A stretch of 64,000 nt of DNA. Origin: Aeropyrum camini SY1 = JCM 12091. GTDB lineage: Archaea > Thermoproteota > Thermoprotei_A > Sulfolobales > Acidilobaceae. The translations under genes were made by a program, and so were the position numbers. This document shows positions 10,925 to 18,247 of this stretch, one piece after another. Where the stretch lies: assembly GCF_000591035.1 (NCBI RefSeq), contig NC_022521.1:496001-560000 (forward strand). The letters are read 5' to 3'. The number at the start of each line of letters is the position of its first letter. Within the stretch, counting starts at the first letter, position 1. The notes below the pieces were generated by a model. The model made no database searches. It saw only the letters and a program-made list of their open reading frames with translations, and had not been told where the DNA came from.

Positions 10925-11578
10925 GTGGCATTGCAGTCAAGAGGGGAGTTTAACCGGGTTTTGGGCTGCGTCAAGTCGAGGAGGTCTCTTCATATTACCG
11001 GGCCGCCTGGCTCTGGTAAGAGTACATTTGTTGAGAGGCTTGCTGAGGCTTTGCGGGGCAGGGGGTGCAGGCTAGGGGGTTTTACTGCTCCGGAGGTGAG
11101 GAGAGGGGGCAGGCGTGTCGCGTTTAAGATAGTTGACATAGCCAGCGGGGAGGAGGCTTATCTGGCTGTAGCCGACGAGAGGCTTGTAGCGCCTGGGGGG
11201 AGGCGTGCTAGGCATGGGAGGTATGTTGTACTAGTTGAAGAGGCATGGAGGGTAATGTATAGCTCCCTCCGCGCTGCCCTTGCTTCTGCTGACGTCATAG
11301 TTGTCGACGAGGTGGGTCCTATGGAGCTAGCGGTGCCCGGGTTTAGGGAGGCGCTTGTCGAGGTCCTCAGGTCGGGGAAGCCGGTGGTAACAGTCTTCCA
11401 CAGGAGGCTCAGGAGTCTAGACCCTGGATTGTATAAGCTGTTAGAGAGGGGCTGTATAGTCTGGTTAGACGAGGGGAATAGAGGATACCTAACCGGGTTG
11501 GCGGGTGAGATTGCTGATGCACTCTCCAGCGAGGCTTGCAGCGACTCTGGAGGGCAAGGCTATAGTATATATGCCTAG
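10925..11578 (+). CDS. Nucleoside-triphosphatase (THEP1 family)
   Basis: THEP1 proteins are small P-loop NTPases that hydrolyse several nucleoside triphosphates slowly; the cellular role is unclear. The Walker A motif GPPGSGKST is at about residue 26 and the Walker B region [12 protein letters not shown] at about residue 119. A VFHRR motif follows, as in the family. The start is GTG. The C-terminus overlaps the start of the Trm1 gene by 62 bases, so the two genes are probably cotranscribed and translationally linked. Confidence 0.85.
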
Positions 11579-12731
11579 CCCGGAGTCCGCTATAGTCTCC
11601 GGCAGGCTAGAGCCAGCGTGGCTTGAGGTCTTCTATAACCCGGCAATGGAGTTTAACAGGGATGTGAGCATCATAGTAGCCATTGCCCTGAGATCGCTAG
11701 GACTTATGACTAGGTCGGGGGTGGCGTTAGACGCCCACTCAGGCGTTGGCGTGAGAGGTGTAAGGTACGCTCTGGAGGCCGGTTTGGGGCATGTTATAAT
11801 GAATGATATAAACCCTAAGGCAGCTAGGCTCTCAGCTCTCAACGCAAGAGCGAACGGCCTGGAGCCAGGCTCCTACACAATCTTCAACAGAGACTCCAAC
11901 AGCCTGATGTTCCACCTCTCTAGGGAGAGGCCCACACCAGTGTCGCTGATAGATATAGACCCCTACGGGTCTCCAGCGCCCTTCCTAGACGCAGCCCTAG
12001 CCCTCTCGGGTAAAGGCAGCGTGGTGGCGGTGACCGCTACTGATCTAGCCGTGCTTGAGGGCCGAAAGGCGAGGGCCGCTGTTAGGAGGTACATGCTCAG
12101 GGGCGTGTCAAAAACGCCTCTTTCCAAGGAGACGGGGCTAAGGGTTCTTCTAGGATATTTGGCTAGGGTCGCTGCATCACACGACAAAGCTGTGAAGCCT
12201 CTGGTCGCATACTATGCAGACCACTACTACCGGGTGTATGTCTCTGTGGAGCGCGGTGCAAAGCGGTCTGACGCCATGCTGGAGGAGAGTATTGGAAAAG
12301 TAGTCTACTGCTCCGAGGCTGGCGTGGCTATTGCAGTGCCTCATAGCAGCGATCCCCGGGAGGTGTGCGGCGGGCAGTATATAGTTGCGGGAGAGCCTGC
12401 GTGGATTGGGAGCTTGGGCGACAAGTCATTTATAGAGGCAATGCTCGATATAGCGGGAAAGTCGGGGTGGCTCGGAACGCGTGCAAGAGTGGAGAGGCTC
12501 CTAGAAATTCTGCTGGGAGAAACACCGCTCTCCCGAGGGAATATATACGTGTCGCTGACCAGCCTAGCGTCTAAAGCCAGGGTAAACACGCCAAAGAAGA
12601 GCTTGGTAATAGAGTTTCTGAGGGAGAGAGGATATAGGGCAGCTGCCACTCATTTCTCTGGCGAGGGGGTGAGGACTGATGCCCCCTGGGAGGAAGTGCG
12701 AGAGGCTGTTGTGAAACTCAGCTCAAGGTAG
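11517..12731 (+). CDS. trm1: tRNA (guanine(26)-N2)-dimethyltransferase Trm1
   Basis: Trm1 methylates G26 of tRNA using S-adenosylmethionine. The SAM site is seen as [16 protein letters not shown], followed by [15 protein letters not shown]. The catalytic signature [19 protein letters not shown] is intact, and ALEGxKA-like sequence follows. A C-terminal winged-helix-like extension is present. The ATG at 11517 is preceded by GGTGAG at a spacing of seven, so I prefer it to the GTG at 11505. The length of 404 residues is near the archaeal average of about 380. Confidence 0.92.
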
Positions 12732-12741
12732 ATTGGGCAGC

Positions 12742-13107
12742 CTACTTGCCGTGGACCCACTCGTCTATAAGGCGGCAGCTCTCGGGGCTGTAGAAGCCTC
12801 CCTCGCCACACTCGTCTATATATGGGCATACAACACATGGTATATCGAGTATCGACCCTATGTCCACAATAATGTTTAGCTGCTTCCTATCTGTGGGCTC
12901 TGCTGGGTAGAGCCTATACGTTTTCCTACCGTTTATGACAACCTGCTCCCTACGGATTATACCCTTCCTTGCTAGACGAAGGACTATCCGCGAGCCTTCA
13001 CGGCTATCTAGGCCAAGGAGCTTCCAGAGCTCGCTCTGCAATATACCTTCCGTCTGTTTTATAAGCTCTAGGGCGCGCTTCTCGTAAACCTCGACGTTTC
13101 TAACCAT
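12742..13107 (-). CDS. Transcription factor E beta (RPC34/hRPC39-like, Fe-S)
   Basis: The N-terminal 75 residues form a winged helix (LQSELWKLLGLDSREGSRIV, then RRE and a TYRLYP wing). The C-terminus has four cysteines in the order CxxC-x5-C-x8-C (CVVCPYIDEC then SPESC), the pattern of the cubane Fe-S cluster in archaeal TFE-beta. With TFE-alpha this protein would stabilise the RNA polymerase clamp during initiation. The length of 121 residues agrees. The stop lies 11 bases from the stop of the convergent Trm1 gene. The TFE-alpha gene is not in the window. Confidence 0.82.
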   Translation of the reverse strand: MVRNVEVYEKRALELIKQTEGILQSELWKLLGLDSREGSRIVLRLARKGIIRREQVVINGRKTYRLYPAEPTDRKQLNIIVDIGSILDIPCVVCPYIDECGEGGFYSPESCRLIDEWVHGK

Positions 13108-15343: not shown

Positions 15344-15450
15344 CCCGTGGGAAACTGGTGTTATAGCTTCTATAAACCGCGGCCCTGTAATACGATAGAA
15401 TGCTGCAAGGACGTTGGCCTAGAGTAGGCAACCGCCCGGAGGGTTTGGAT

Positions 15451-15858
15451 ATGGCGGACCGCGGAAAGCAGCGTCGTAGAACTAGAGGGGGTACGGGGAG
15501 AAGGCGTGTAGAATATAGGAGAGTGCCTCTAGGCGTTGTGAGGGCTATAGTGAGGACGGGGCATATAGTGGTAGAGCCTAGCGAGAGGGTGAGGAGAGAC
15601 CCGCCCCGTGGTAGGTTTCAAGTGGTTTTGGCTGGAGACGGTGAGGTGGGCTACGTCTCAGACGTCATAGGCCCTGTAAACTCCCCTTATATAGTGGTCA
15701 GGGCTAGAAATAGGGAGGTTATTGAGAAGCTCGGCCCGGGAGTGGAGCTTGTGATGCTTGTTCCCATTAAGAAACGGCCGATGAAAGGAGGTCCTCGCCC
15801 TCCAAGACGGGGTTCAAAGAGGGGTAGAGGTTTCAAGAAGGGAAAGGCGGGGAAGTAG
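15451..15858 (+). CDS. gar1: H/ACA ribonucleoprotein protein Gar1
   Basis: Gar1 is a core protein of H/ACA RNPs, which pseudouridylate rRNA. The central beta-barrel is visible (GVVRAIVRTGHIVVEP and GYVSDVIGPVNSPYIVVR), flanked by a basic N-terminus and an Arg/Gly/Lys-rich tail (RRGSKRGRGFKKGKAG). The ATG at 15451 is preceded by GGAGGGT at the right spacing; an in-frame ATG at 15400 has none. A TATA element (TCTATAAA, about 15368-15375) lies upstream. The gene precedes a TFB gene, an order common in archaea. Confidence 0.93.
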   Translation: MADRGKQRRRTRGGTGRRRVEYRRVPLGVVRAIVRTGHIVVEPSERVRRDPPRGRFQVVLAGDGEVGYVSDVIGPVNSPYIVVRARNREVIEKLGPGVELVMLVPIKKRPMKGGPRPPRRGSKRGRGFKKGKAGK

Positions 15859-15971
15859 GAGGGATACAATCCCCCTTCCCAACACCTAGCTACTGGGCTA
15901 CAGCGCCGAGTCCTCCGGGCGGTGTGCCTCGTGCATGAGGGCTTGGCATCTCTCCACCTGGGGTGGTTAAA

Positions 15972-16883
15972 ATGCATGGTTCGTGCGAAAACGTCATAGT
16001 AACTCCCGAGGGCGAGTGGGTTTGTCTCGATACTGGGGAGGTTTTGAAGGAAAATAGTTTTGCCGAGTATATGGTGGTGCCTAGGCATTCTTCAACACCC
16101 GAGACAGCGACTCCCGTATCGTTCAAGACGCACGATATGAACATAGGTGCTAGGATGAGCGACTATAGCTCCGCCAGGAACCCCTTGAAGAGGGGGCTGA
16201 GGACCTCGAAGTATGCTACGAGCAGCATATCAAGGTCGGAGGTTCCGACTATAACCGCACTTCAAAAACTGAAGGAGCTGGTGGAGATACTTAAGATCCC
16301 GGCTAGCGTGCACGAGACTGCCGCCCTCATTCTAAGAAGCTATCTCGACTCGGTCTCCAGGAGGCCGGGGAGGGTTGAGCAGTATGTAGCGGCATCCATA
16401 GCCAAGGCGGTAGAGATACATGGAATACCTATTAGCATCGGCGAGGTGGCGAAGGCTGCGGGCGTCGAGATAGAGAGTGTTCAGAAAGCCATACTCCAGA
16501 TGTCGGAGACGGAAGTGGTTAAGAATCTTGTTAGGAAGTCTATAGTTAAGGCTCGCTTCCGGGGCTCCTCCACCAAGATGAGGAGGATAGAGGAATTTAT
16601 AAACAGGCTAGTCTCTAACCTGGGCTTAGACCCCGAGGTTAAGAGGATAGCTCTCGAATTTGTTAGAGTCTCGCTTAAAGCGGGTAGCGGGGCCAACATT
16701 AAAACTTTCCACGGTAAAAAATCTGCTGCACTGGCAGCCGCTGCCGTCTACCTTGCAGCCAGGCTGCTCAACTACGACGTCAGCCAGAAGAAGATAGCTA
16801 GCATGCTGGAGCTCAAAGAATCCAACATAAGGAAACACTATAGGTTTTTGATAGATAATGTCGCGATAATAGTCTATGTATAG
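15972..16883 (+). CDS. tfb: Transcription initiation factor B (divergent TFB)
   Basis: The protein has the two cyclin repeats of TFB (about residues 95-190 and 195-303; LPxSVHETAAL-like and HGKKSAALAAAAVYLAARLL). The N-terminal zinc ribbon is degenerate. The usual CxxC knuckles are replaced by HGSC (residues 2-5) and VCLDTG (around residue 18), leaving His, Cys and Cys but Thr at the fourth position. The ATG at 15972 is preferred to the GTG at 15963. It binds TBP and BRE DNA. The altered ribbon may weaken or change contact with RNA polymerase. Confidence 0.88.
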   Translation: MHGSCENVIVTPEGEWVCLDTGEVLKENSFAEYMVVPRHSSTPETATPVSFKTHDMNIGARMSDYSSARNPLKRGLRTSKYATSSISRSEVPTITALQKLKELVEILKIPASVHETAALILRSYLDSVSRRPGRVEQYVAASIAKAVEIHGIPISIGEVAKAAGVEIESVQKAILQMSETEVVKNLVRKSIVKARFRGSSTKMRRIEEFINRLVSNLGLDPEVKRIALEFVRVSLKAGSGANIKTFHGKKSAALAAAAVYLAARLLNYDVSQKKIASMLELKESNIRKHYRFLIDNVAIIVYV

Positions 16884-17842: not shown

Positions 17843-18247
17843 GTGGGTATCTATCAGTGGCGTGACAGGAAGAAGCCTTCAGGAGGTAAGAGACGCTACT
17901 ACTATAAAGTGAAGCGGAAATATGCTGCTGGCAGGCCTCCAACACACACCACCTTATCGGCAGCTGAAGAAGAGAGAAAGCTCCTTAGAGTAAGGGGTGG
18001 TAACTATAAGATTAGGGCCAAAAGAGTCGCCTTCGCCGTAGTATCAAACCCAAAGACCGGAGAGGCGAAGAAAGCAAGGATACTCAGGATAGTAGAGACT
18101 CCTGCGCACAGGGAATACGCCCGCAGGGGTATAATAGTGAAGGGAGCAGTAATAGACACGACACTAGGTAAAGCCGTGGTAACCAGTAGGCCAGGCCAGG
18201 ATGGTGTTGTCAACGCAGTTCTGCTGGAAGAATCCAAGAAACAGTAG
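17843..18247 (+). CDS. rps8e: Small ribosomal subunit protein S8e
   Basis: The N-terminus GIYQWRDRKKPSGGKRR and the internal RIVETPAHREYARRGIIVKG match archaeal S8e. The length of 134 residues is typical. The start is GTG, preceded by AGCAGGTGG-like sequence. It is probably cotranscribed with the XTPase gene. The 245 bases after the stop contain no gene I can support. Confidence 0.95.
   Translation: MGIYQWRDRKKPSGGKRRYYYKVKRKYAAGRPPTHTTLSAAEEERKLLRVRGGNYKIRAKRVAFAVVSNPKTGEAKKARILRIVETPAHREYARRGIIVKGAVIDTTLGKAVVTSRPGQDGVVNAVLLEESKKQ

Follow-up and report, generated by a model that had tools for sequence, protein, structure and literature searches.

The zinc ribbon of TFB and TFIIB is treated as universal, and in human TFIIB a valine and an arginine of the BRE-reading helix contact the BRE. 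As described in the accessible text of Blombach and colleagues (PMC2770514), a crenarchaeal TFB paralogue adjoins RPC34/TFE-beta and gar1, and the S. acidocaldarius genes for TFB2 and TFE-beta are saci_1341 and saci_1342, respectively (PMC6335949). Sulfolobus TFB2 was described as cell-cycle induced and low (PMC2246294), the transcripts of TFB2 and TFE-beta were up on starvation (PMC6335949), and the available portions of three papers indicate a cell-cycle or starvation role (PMC2246294, PMC7617429, PMC6335949). The available portion of PMC2246294 also asserts that the ribbon is conserved in all. No statement on missing zinc ligands in a Sulfolobus TFB was found in the literature searched, and older subscription papers may hold one.

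TFB2 and its neighbourhood are already known, and the gene under study belongs to this type. The window, by which we mean the whole 64,000-nucleotide stretch of DNA that was analysed, comes from a genome of 1,595,994 bases on one contig (G000). Two genes with TFIIB repeats were found in this genome, the window TFB2 and a TFB1 at about G000:C1:1487690-1488667, together with one TBP gene. The features of the window gene and its neighbours are listed in Table 1. A methionine stands at the matching start position in the homologue of G027, which is among the two closest genomes, and an Aeropyrum metagenome-assembled genome of the same genus (G081) encodes a relative with 58 percent identity to the window protein (L174).

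Table 1. Coordinates of the window TFB2, its parts and its conserved neighbours (positions in the window).
Feature	Position	Strand	Remark
TFB2 CDS	15972..16883	+	303 aa from ATG, stop 16883; alternative GTG at 15963
Mini-ribbon, putatively zinc-less, residues 5-22	15984..16037	+	alignments, AF2 strands, no PF08271 match
C5 of mini-ribbon	15984-15986	+	first Cys of knuckle 1
C18 of mini-ribbon	16023-16025	+	first Cys of knuckle 2
T21 of mini-ribbon	16032-16034	+	replaces second Cys of knuckle 2
His2, ligand proposed in the earlier note	15975..15977	+	unconserved beyond nearest genome
Degenerate B-reader, residues 27-57	16050..16142	+	without EWR; retained HD near its end; pLDDT <50 at residues 28-45
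First cyclin (TFIIB) repeat	16242..16508	+	PF00382 23.7 bits, cut-off 23.6, weak
Second cyclin (TFIIB) repeat	16584..16853	+	PF00382 50.7 bits
Altered BRE-reading helix KESNIRKHYRF, residues 282-292	16815..16847	+	replaces TEVTVRNRYKE
gar1	15400..15858	+	lies upstream of TFB2, conserved neighbour
TFE-beta-like gene (MarR/Rpc34-like, four cysteines)	12742..13107	-	conserved neighbourhood
trm1-like tRNA methyltransferase	11505..12731	+	conserved neighbourhood
Ribosomal protein S8e	17843..18247	+	conserved neighbourhood

The assignment to TFB2 follows from the gar1/TFE-beta neighbourhood together with a tree of the cyclin core. Ten families of the order had gar1 in their TFB2 loci, with f6 as the sole exception; TFE-beta, trm1 and S8e were close by in many of these loci, and the grouping of gar1, TFB and TFE-beta was also seen beyond the order (L185, L189, L191 and L192). 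TFB2 is an old second TFB, located downstream of gar1 in almost every family of the order. The tree was built by a quick method, with long branches flagged, from the cyclin core alone of 140 rows (43 TFB1, 90 TFB2 and 7 outgroup rows), and gar1 was not used in it; the TFB2 label rests on gar1 in the locus for 83 of the 90 rows, on hand-setting for two and on family assumption for five. Four truncated rows were left out (L021, L025, L027 and L049), and near relatives were thinned (L007, L016, L061, L064, L117, L126, L150 and L153). All 90 TFB2 rows fell on one side of a branch, with the 43 rows without gar1 outside (SH-aLRT 91), and the window gene grouped with its Aeropyrum-group orthologues (SH-aLRT 98). 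One outgroup TFB row from another order (L149, from G150, f13) fell next to TFB2, which could mean that TFB2 predates the order or that G150 was placed there by long-branch attraction.

Like crenarchaeal TFB2 (SSO0946 / Saci_1341), the window gene encodes a full-length TFB and lies in the gar1 / TFE-beta / Trm1 neighbourhood. Primer sequences from PMC2246294, compared with the loci to anchor SSO0946, gave no match; SSO0946 is therefore linked through the neighbourhood (PMC2770514, PMC6335949) and the tree. The core-tree TFB2 clade includes the TFB2s of f11, the family that holds Metallosphaera javensis (L183). However, the f11 proteins carry [ED]WR, a mostly standard BRE helix and ribbons with three or four cysteines, whereas the window TFB2 has two cysteines, no EWR and the KESNIRKHYRF helix. 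Like the window gene, Sulfolobus TFB3 is a paralogue of TFB whose N-terminal half is changed, but it keeps the zinc ribbon and is without the B-finger and HTH, according to the available part of PMC2246294; the window gene is the reverse. Compared with eukaryotic TFIIB and four-Cys archaeal TFB, core fold and domain order are alike, and the window TFB2 differs by having lost the zinc ligands and the EWR reader.

PF08271, the TFIIB zinc ribbon family, did not match the window TFB2 at E<=0.1, nor at E<=1 in a genome-wide search. Each knuckle of the ribbon has retained its first cysteine and lost its second. An earlier note on this DNA had reported that both CxxC pairs were missing, which was borne out, since the knuckles read C5-E-N-V and C18-L-D-T21. 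Its Cys-x-x-Thr is the second of these motifs. Its His-x-x-Cys was a misreading of the register, as C5 stands at the first cysteine position of knuckle 1 and H2 lacks conservation. Apart from C5 and C18 the window protein has no cysteine, while the close relative L037 has one additional cysteine. The C5 column was cysteine in 21 of 21 aligned TFB2s, C18 was likewise invariant, and all 25 homologues carried both residues. The window TFB2 had a dN/dS of 0.034 overall and 0.033 in the ribbon between the two nearest species, at a dS of about 1.2, and the gene is under purifying selection. The ribbon pattern is therefore more than chance, because C5 and C18 are invariant across the 25 homologues and the ribbon dN/dS is so low. 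The TFB1 value for the two nearest species was 0.002 at saturated dS; the TFB2 value is about 17 times higher, which suggests weaker constraint on TFB2.

AF2 modelling of the window TFB2 with 25 sequences gave a mean pLDDT of 77, with most of the core high. The ribbon strands (residues 8-10, 16-18 and 24-26) were predicted at a modest pLDDT of 63-70, compared with 80-86 in the ribbon of a four-Cys Caldisphaera control, and pLDDT fell below 50 at residues 28-45, 60-70 and 72-83. By fold, the top PDB matches were Pyrococcus TFB, along with chains from pol II initiation complexes. In sequence searches, an Acidilobaceae TFB1 matched 12 PDB sequences (E<=1e-10) and the family profile matched 23 (E<=1e-5); to our knowledge, none of these PDB matches is a crenarchaeal TFB.

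The earlier note had taken the degenerate ribbon as a possible mark of a special gene. This was not supported, as the same two-Cys ribbon was found in the TFB1 of the genome and in most TFB1s of the order. Of the 43 TFB1s in the tree, 40 had two-Cys and three had four-Cys ribbons, the latter all from f6, and 13 of 13 additional TFB1s (f2, f3, f5 and f7) were two-Cys, giving 53 of 56 sampled TFB1s in total. These two-Cys TFB1 ribbons carry CxxT/S/G. The TFB1 of the genome, also two-Cys with CxxT, was not matched by PF08271 either. Loss of ligands is thus clade-wide and no mark of the window gene, and the main TFB of the order normally carries a ribbon with half of the ligands. The note had also raised the case that this ligand set is normal in relatives and belongs to a single, zinc-binding TFB; it is normal in the relatives, but the window TFB2 is not the single TFB. 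The TFB1s of the order resemble the window TFB2 in the two-Cys CxxT ribbon and the shortened knuckle 1, and within the genus they share the loss of EWR, but they are far more conserved.

Among the 90 TFB2 ribbons, 28 were four-Cys, three were three-Cys, 44 were two-Cys and 15 had no recognisable pair, the last figure including L121 (CPVC..CSHGH), which has three cysteines and a possible histidine and keeps both first cysteines. All seven outgroup TFB ribbons were four-Cys. The first cysteine of each knuckle was kept in 84 of 84 two-Cys rows, and where the pair was kept with fewer than four cysteines, threonine stood at the lost second position of knuckle 2 in 37 of 40 TFB1s and 39 of 47 TFB2s. 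On the core tree, at least six changes between four-Cys and fewer were counted within TFB2, with six rows set by hand (L038, L072, L073 and L078-L080). TFB2 ribbons without any cysteine were seen in f5 (L095, L096, L097, L101 and L130) and in f1 g3 (L070, L071 and L081), and the TG of knuckle 2 was mostly retained in them. Above the cut-off, PF08271 matched two proteins of G000, one TFE-alpha-like and the other TFB3-like with 201 aa. Both keep four-Cys ribbons, so the genome does not avoid zinc ribbons in general.

In two relatives the TFB1 ribbon has been copied into TFB2. TFB2 (L105) and TFB1 (L006) of G010 (f10) are identical over 110 nt across ribbon and reader, a gene conversion between the paralogues, in a draft assembly where both genes lie well inside contigs and misassembly is possible; their identity fell from 0.86 in the ribbon through 0.74 in the reader to 0.35 in the core. 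The TFB2 of G062 (f1, one contig) has a TFB1-type ribbon (identity 0.75 vs 0.26 in the core) with an exact run of 29 nt, and its nearest tree neighbour, from G046, has four cysteines. For comparison, 210 TFB2-TFB1 pairs across different genomes gave a median longest run of 11 nt and a maximum of 20 nt. An older case, seen in protein only, was found in G067 (ribbon 0.79, core 0.29; 62/90 nt), and a run of 28 nt in G021 was located in the BRE helix. Copying of the ribbon at the DNA level shows how two paralogues can have the polymerase interface in common even as their cores drift apart in promoter reading. A recent transfer from TFB1 was rejected as the source of the window ribbon; the longest run shared with its own TFB1 was 11 nt, the same as the median of the 210 comparison pairs, and its own TFB1 ranked only 31 of 44 by ribbon identity. 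Ribbon transfer does not directly explain the window gene, because only 11 nt are shared.

Outside the ribbon, the window TFB2 is distinguished by loss of EWR, a family-typical altered BRE helix and a divergent first cyclin repeat. The B-reader had been described as hard to recognise, and indeed the EWR triplet is absent; the two closest rows have VPR or VSR in these columns. The reader tryptophan was present in 38 of 43 TFB1s, the five without it being precisely the five Aeropyrum-group rows, and 13 of 13 extra TFB1s carried EWR or DWR. For TFB2, it was found in none of the four Aeropyrum-group rows vs 69 of the 86 others. EWR is lost from both full-length TFBs of Aeropyrum and, among sampled TFB1s, only there, which offers a natural experiment on the need for the B-reader. 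In the TFB1 of the genome (L084 3691-4668), presumably its general TFB, the reader triplet is DVK and half of the zinc ligands are gone.

The valine and arginine of the TEVTVRNRYKE helix were kept in 43 of 43 TFB1s; the window TFB2 reads KESNIRKHYRF at this place. Arginine was present in 90 of 90 TFB2s and valine in 47 of 90, but in none of the f1 TFB2s. The KESNIRKHYRF-type motif is conserved within the family of the window gene, which suggests a changed target rather than decay. The cyclin repeats had been called intact; both were matched by PF00382 above the 23.6-bit cut-off, but the first, which is divergent, only barely, and the BRE-reading helix is altered, so the description was only partly right. 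With PF00382, the TFB1 of the genome scored 137.7 bits vs 67.8 bits for the window TFB2, and NF001658 (NCBIfam, cut-off 384 bits) was reached neither by the window TFB2 (72.7 bits) nor by the TFB1 (277 bits). The suggestion that this is a specialised TFB was upheld by its identity as a gar1-linked TFB2 in a clade of its own, with divergent reader and BRE helix.

We infer that the window TFB2 is probably an alternative initiation factor, with a core for a subset of promoters and a zinc-free mini-ribbon, perhaps held by a C5-C18 disulfide, and leaning on TFE. The cyclin core would bind TBP and promoter DNA through the changed BRE helix and thereby choose a subset of promoters, while the mini-ribbon, free of zinc, would dock on RNA polymerase. 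C5 and C18, one from each former knuckle, may form a disulfide that replaces the metal. This is our favoured guess, though its chance falls somewhat short of even; it is suggested by C5 and C18 being the sole cysteines and retained together, and by the finding, in the accessible part of one study, that intracellular disulfides are dominant in Crenarchaea (PMC3177088). Such a disulfide would not be needed everywhere, because the TFB2s without a cysteine pair keep the gene. Weak start-site choice and DNA opening would be expected of a TFB2 without EWR, and because EWR is gone the factor is probably dependent on TFE for opening; the TFE-beta gene lies in its neighbourhood.

The same ribbon might instead still bind zinc through altered ligands (H2, C5, C18, T21 or another residue, or cysteines shared by two chains). 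A histidine does stand three residues ahead of C5 in the two closest genomes, and PF08271 matched 20 of the 25 homologues. However, H2 was found only in G000 and G027, the next relative (L037/L174) and the other aligned TFB2s having other residues, and binding through it is disfavoured because it is not conserved. C5 and C18 are spaced by 13, the turn of the knuckle being deleted, whereas 25 of 28 four-Cys TFB2s have a spacing of 18-21. Threonine is an unusual zinc ligand, and we consider retained zinc distinctly unlikely. The polymerase contact could also be supplied in trans if TFB2 acted with the short TFB3-like protein, whose four-Cys ribbon would bind polymerase. The 201-aa protein at G000:C1:354156-354758 (L201 1441-2046) would be available for this, and in the available text of PMC3189178 Sulfolobus TFB3 activates via the DNA-TFB1-TBP complex. 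Of 98 genomes from the order, only 46 had a relative of it (E<=0.001), and some of those matches were ribbons of other proteins; such a partnership seems improbable.

Loss of EWR and reduction of the ribbon while the cyclin core is kept would also fit a negative factor, which holds TBP-promoter complexes, cannot open DNA and competes with TFB1; TFS4, a paralogue of the cleavage factor turned inhibitor, is a precedent in the accessible part of PMC9501531. Against this, the Aeropyrum TFB1 is also without EWR (5/5 rows) and must support transcription, and with the tryptophan in 69 of 90 TFB2s the family overall looks like an initiator, so that we regard a negative role as unlikely. A decaying gene of little function would account for the weak first repeat, the lost reader and a ribbon that is nearly gone in the relatives G119 and G087. 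The dN/dS of 0.034 at a dS of about 1.2 and the retention of orthologues throughout the family speak against decay, which is very improbable. The row L049, an Aeropyrum-group TFB2 left out of the tree, also has a ribbon that is nearly gone.

An alternative initiation factor with a zinc-free ribbon remains the preferred reading. For nearly the whole order, we tentatively propose, as a possibility with a less than even chance, that the metal site of the general TFB ribbon gave way to a disulfide staple with one cysteine per knuckle, that this ribbon spread from TFB1 to TFB2 by conversion in some lineages, and that the Aeropyrum TFBs are in addition without EWR. If this is true, neither full-length TFB of Aeropyrum would bring a standard ribbon or reader to the start of transcription. 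With half of the ligands in the main TFB of most of the order, the docking domain would have to fold and work without metal. Sulfolobus offers both genetics and an in vitro system, so that a zinc-free ribbon is directly testable there.

A viral origin of the window gene was rejected, as the window protein scored 99 bits against phrog_20431 while a Metallosphaera TFB2 (284 bits) and TFB1s scored far better, and tblastn against phage records gave no match. The Metallosphaera TFB2 (L183 5944-6831) was the best match to phrog_20431. Furthermore, tblastn found weak TFB-annotated relatives in rod-shaped viruses of Acidianus, Saccharolobus and Metallosphaera, and viral TFBs may descend from TFB2.
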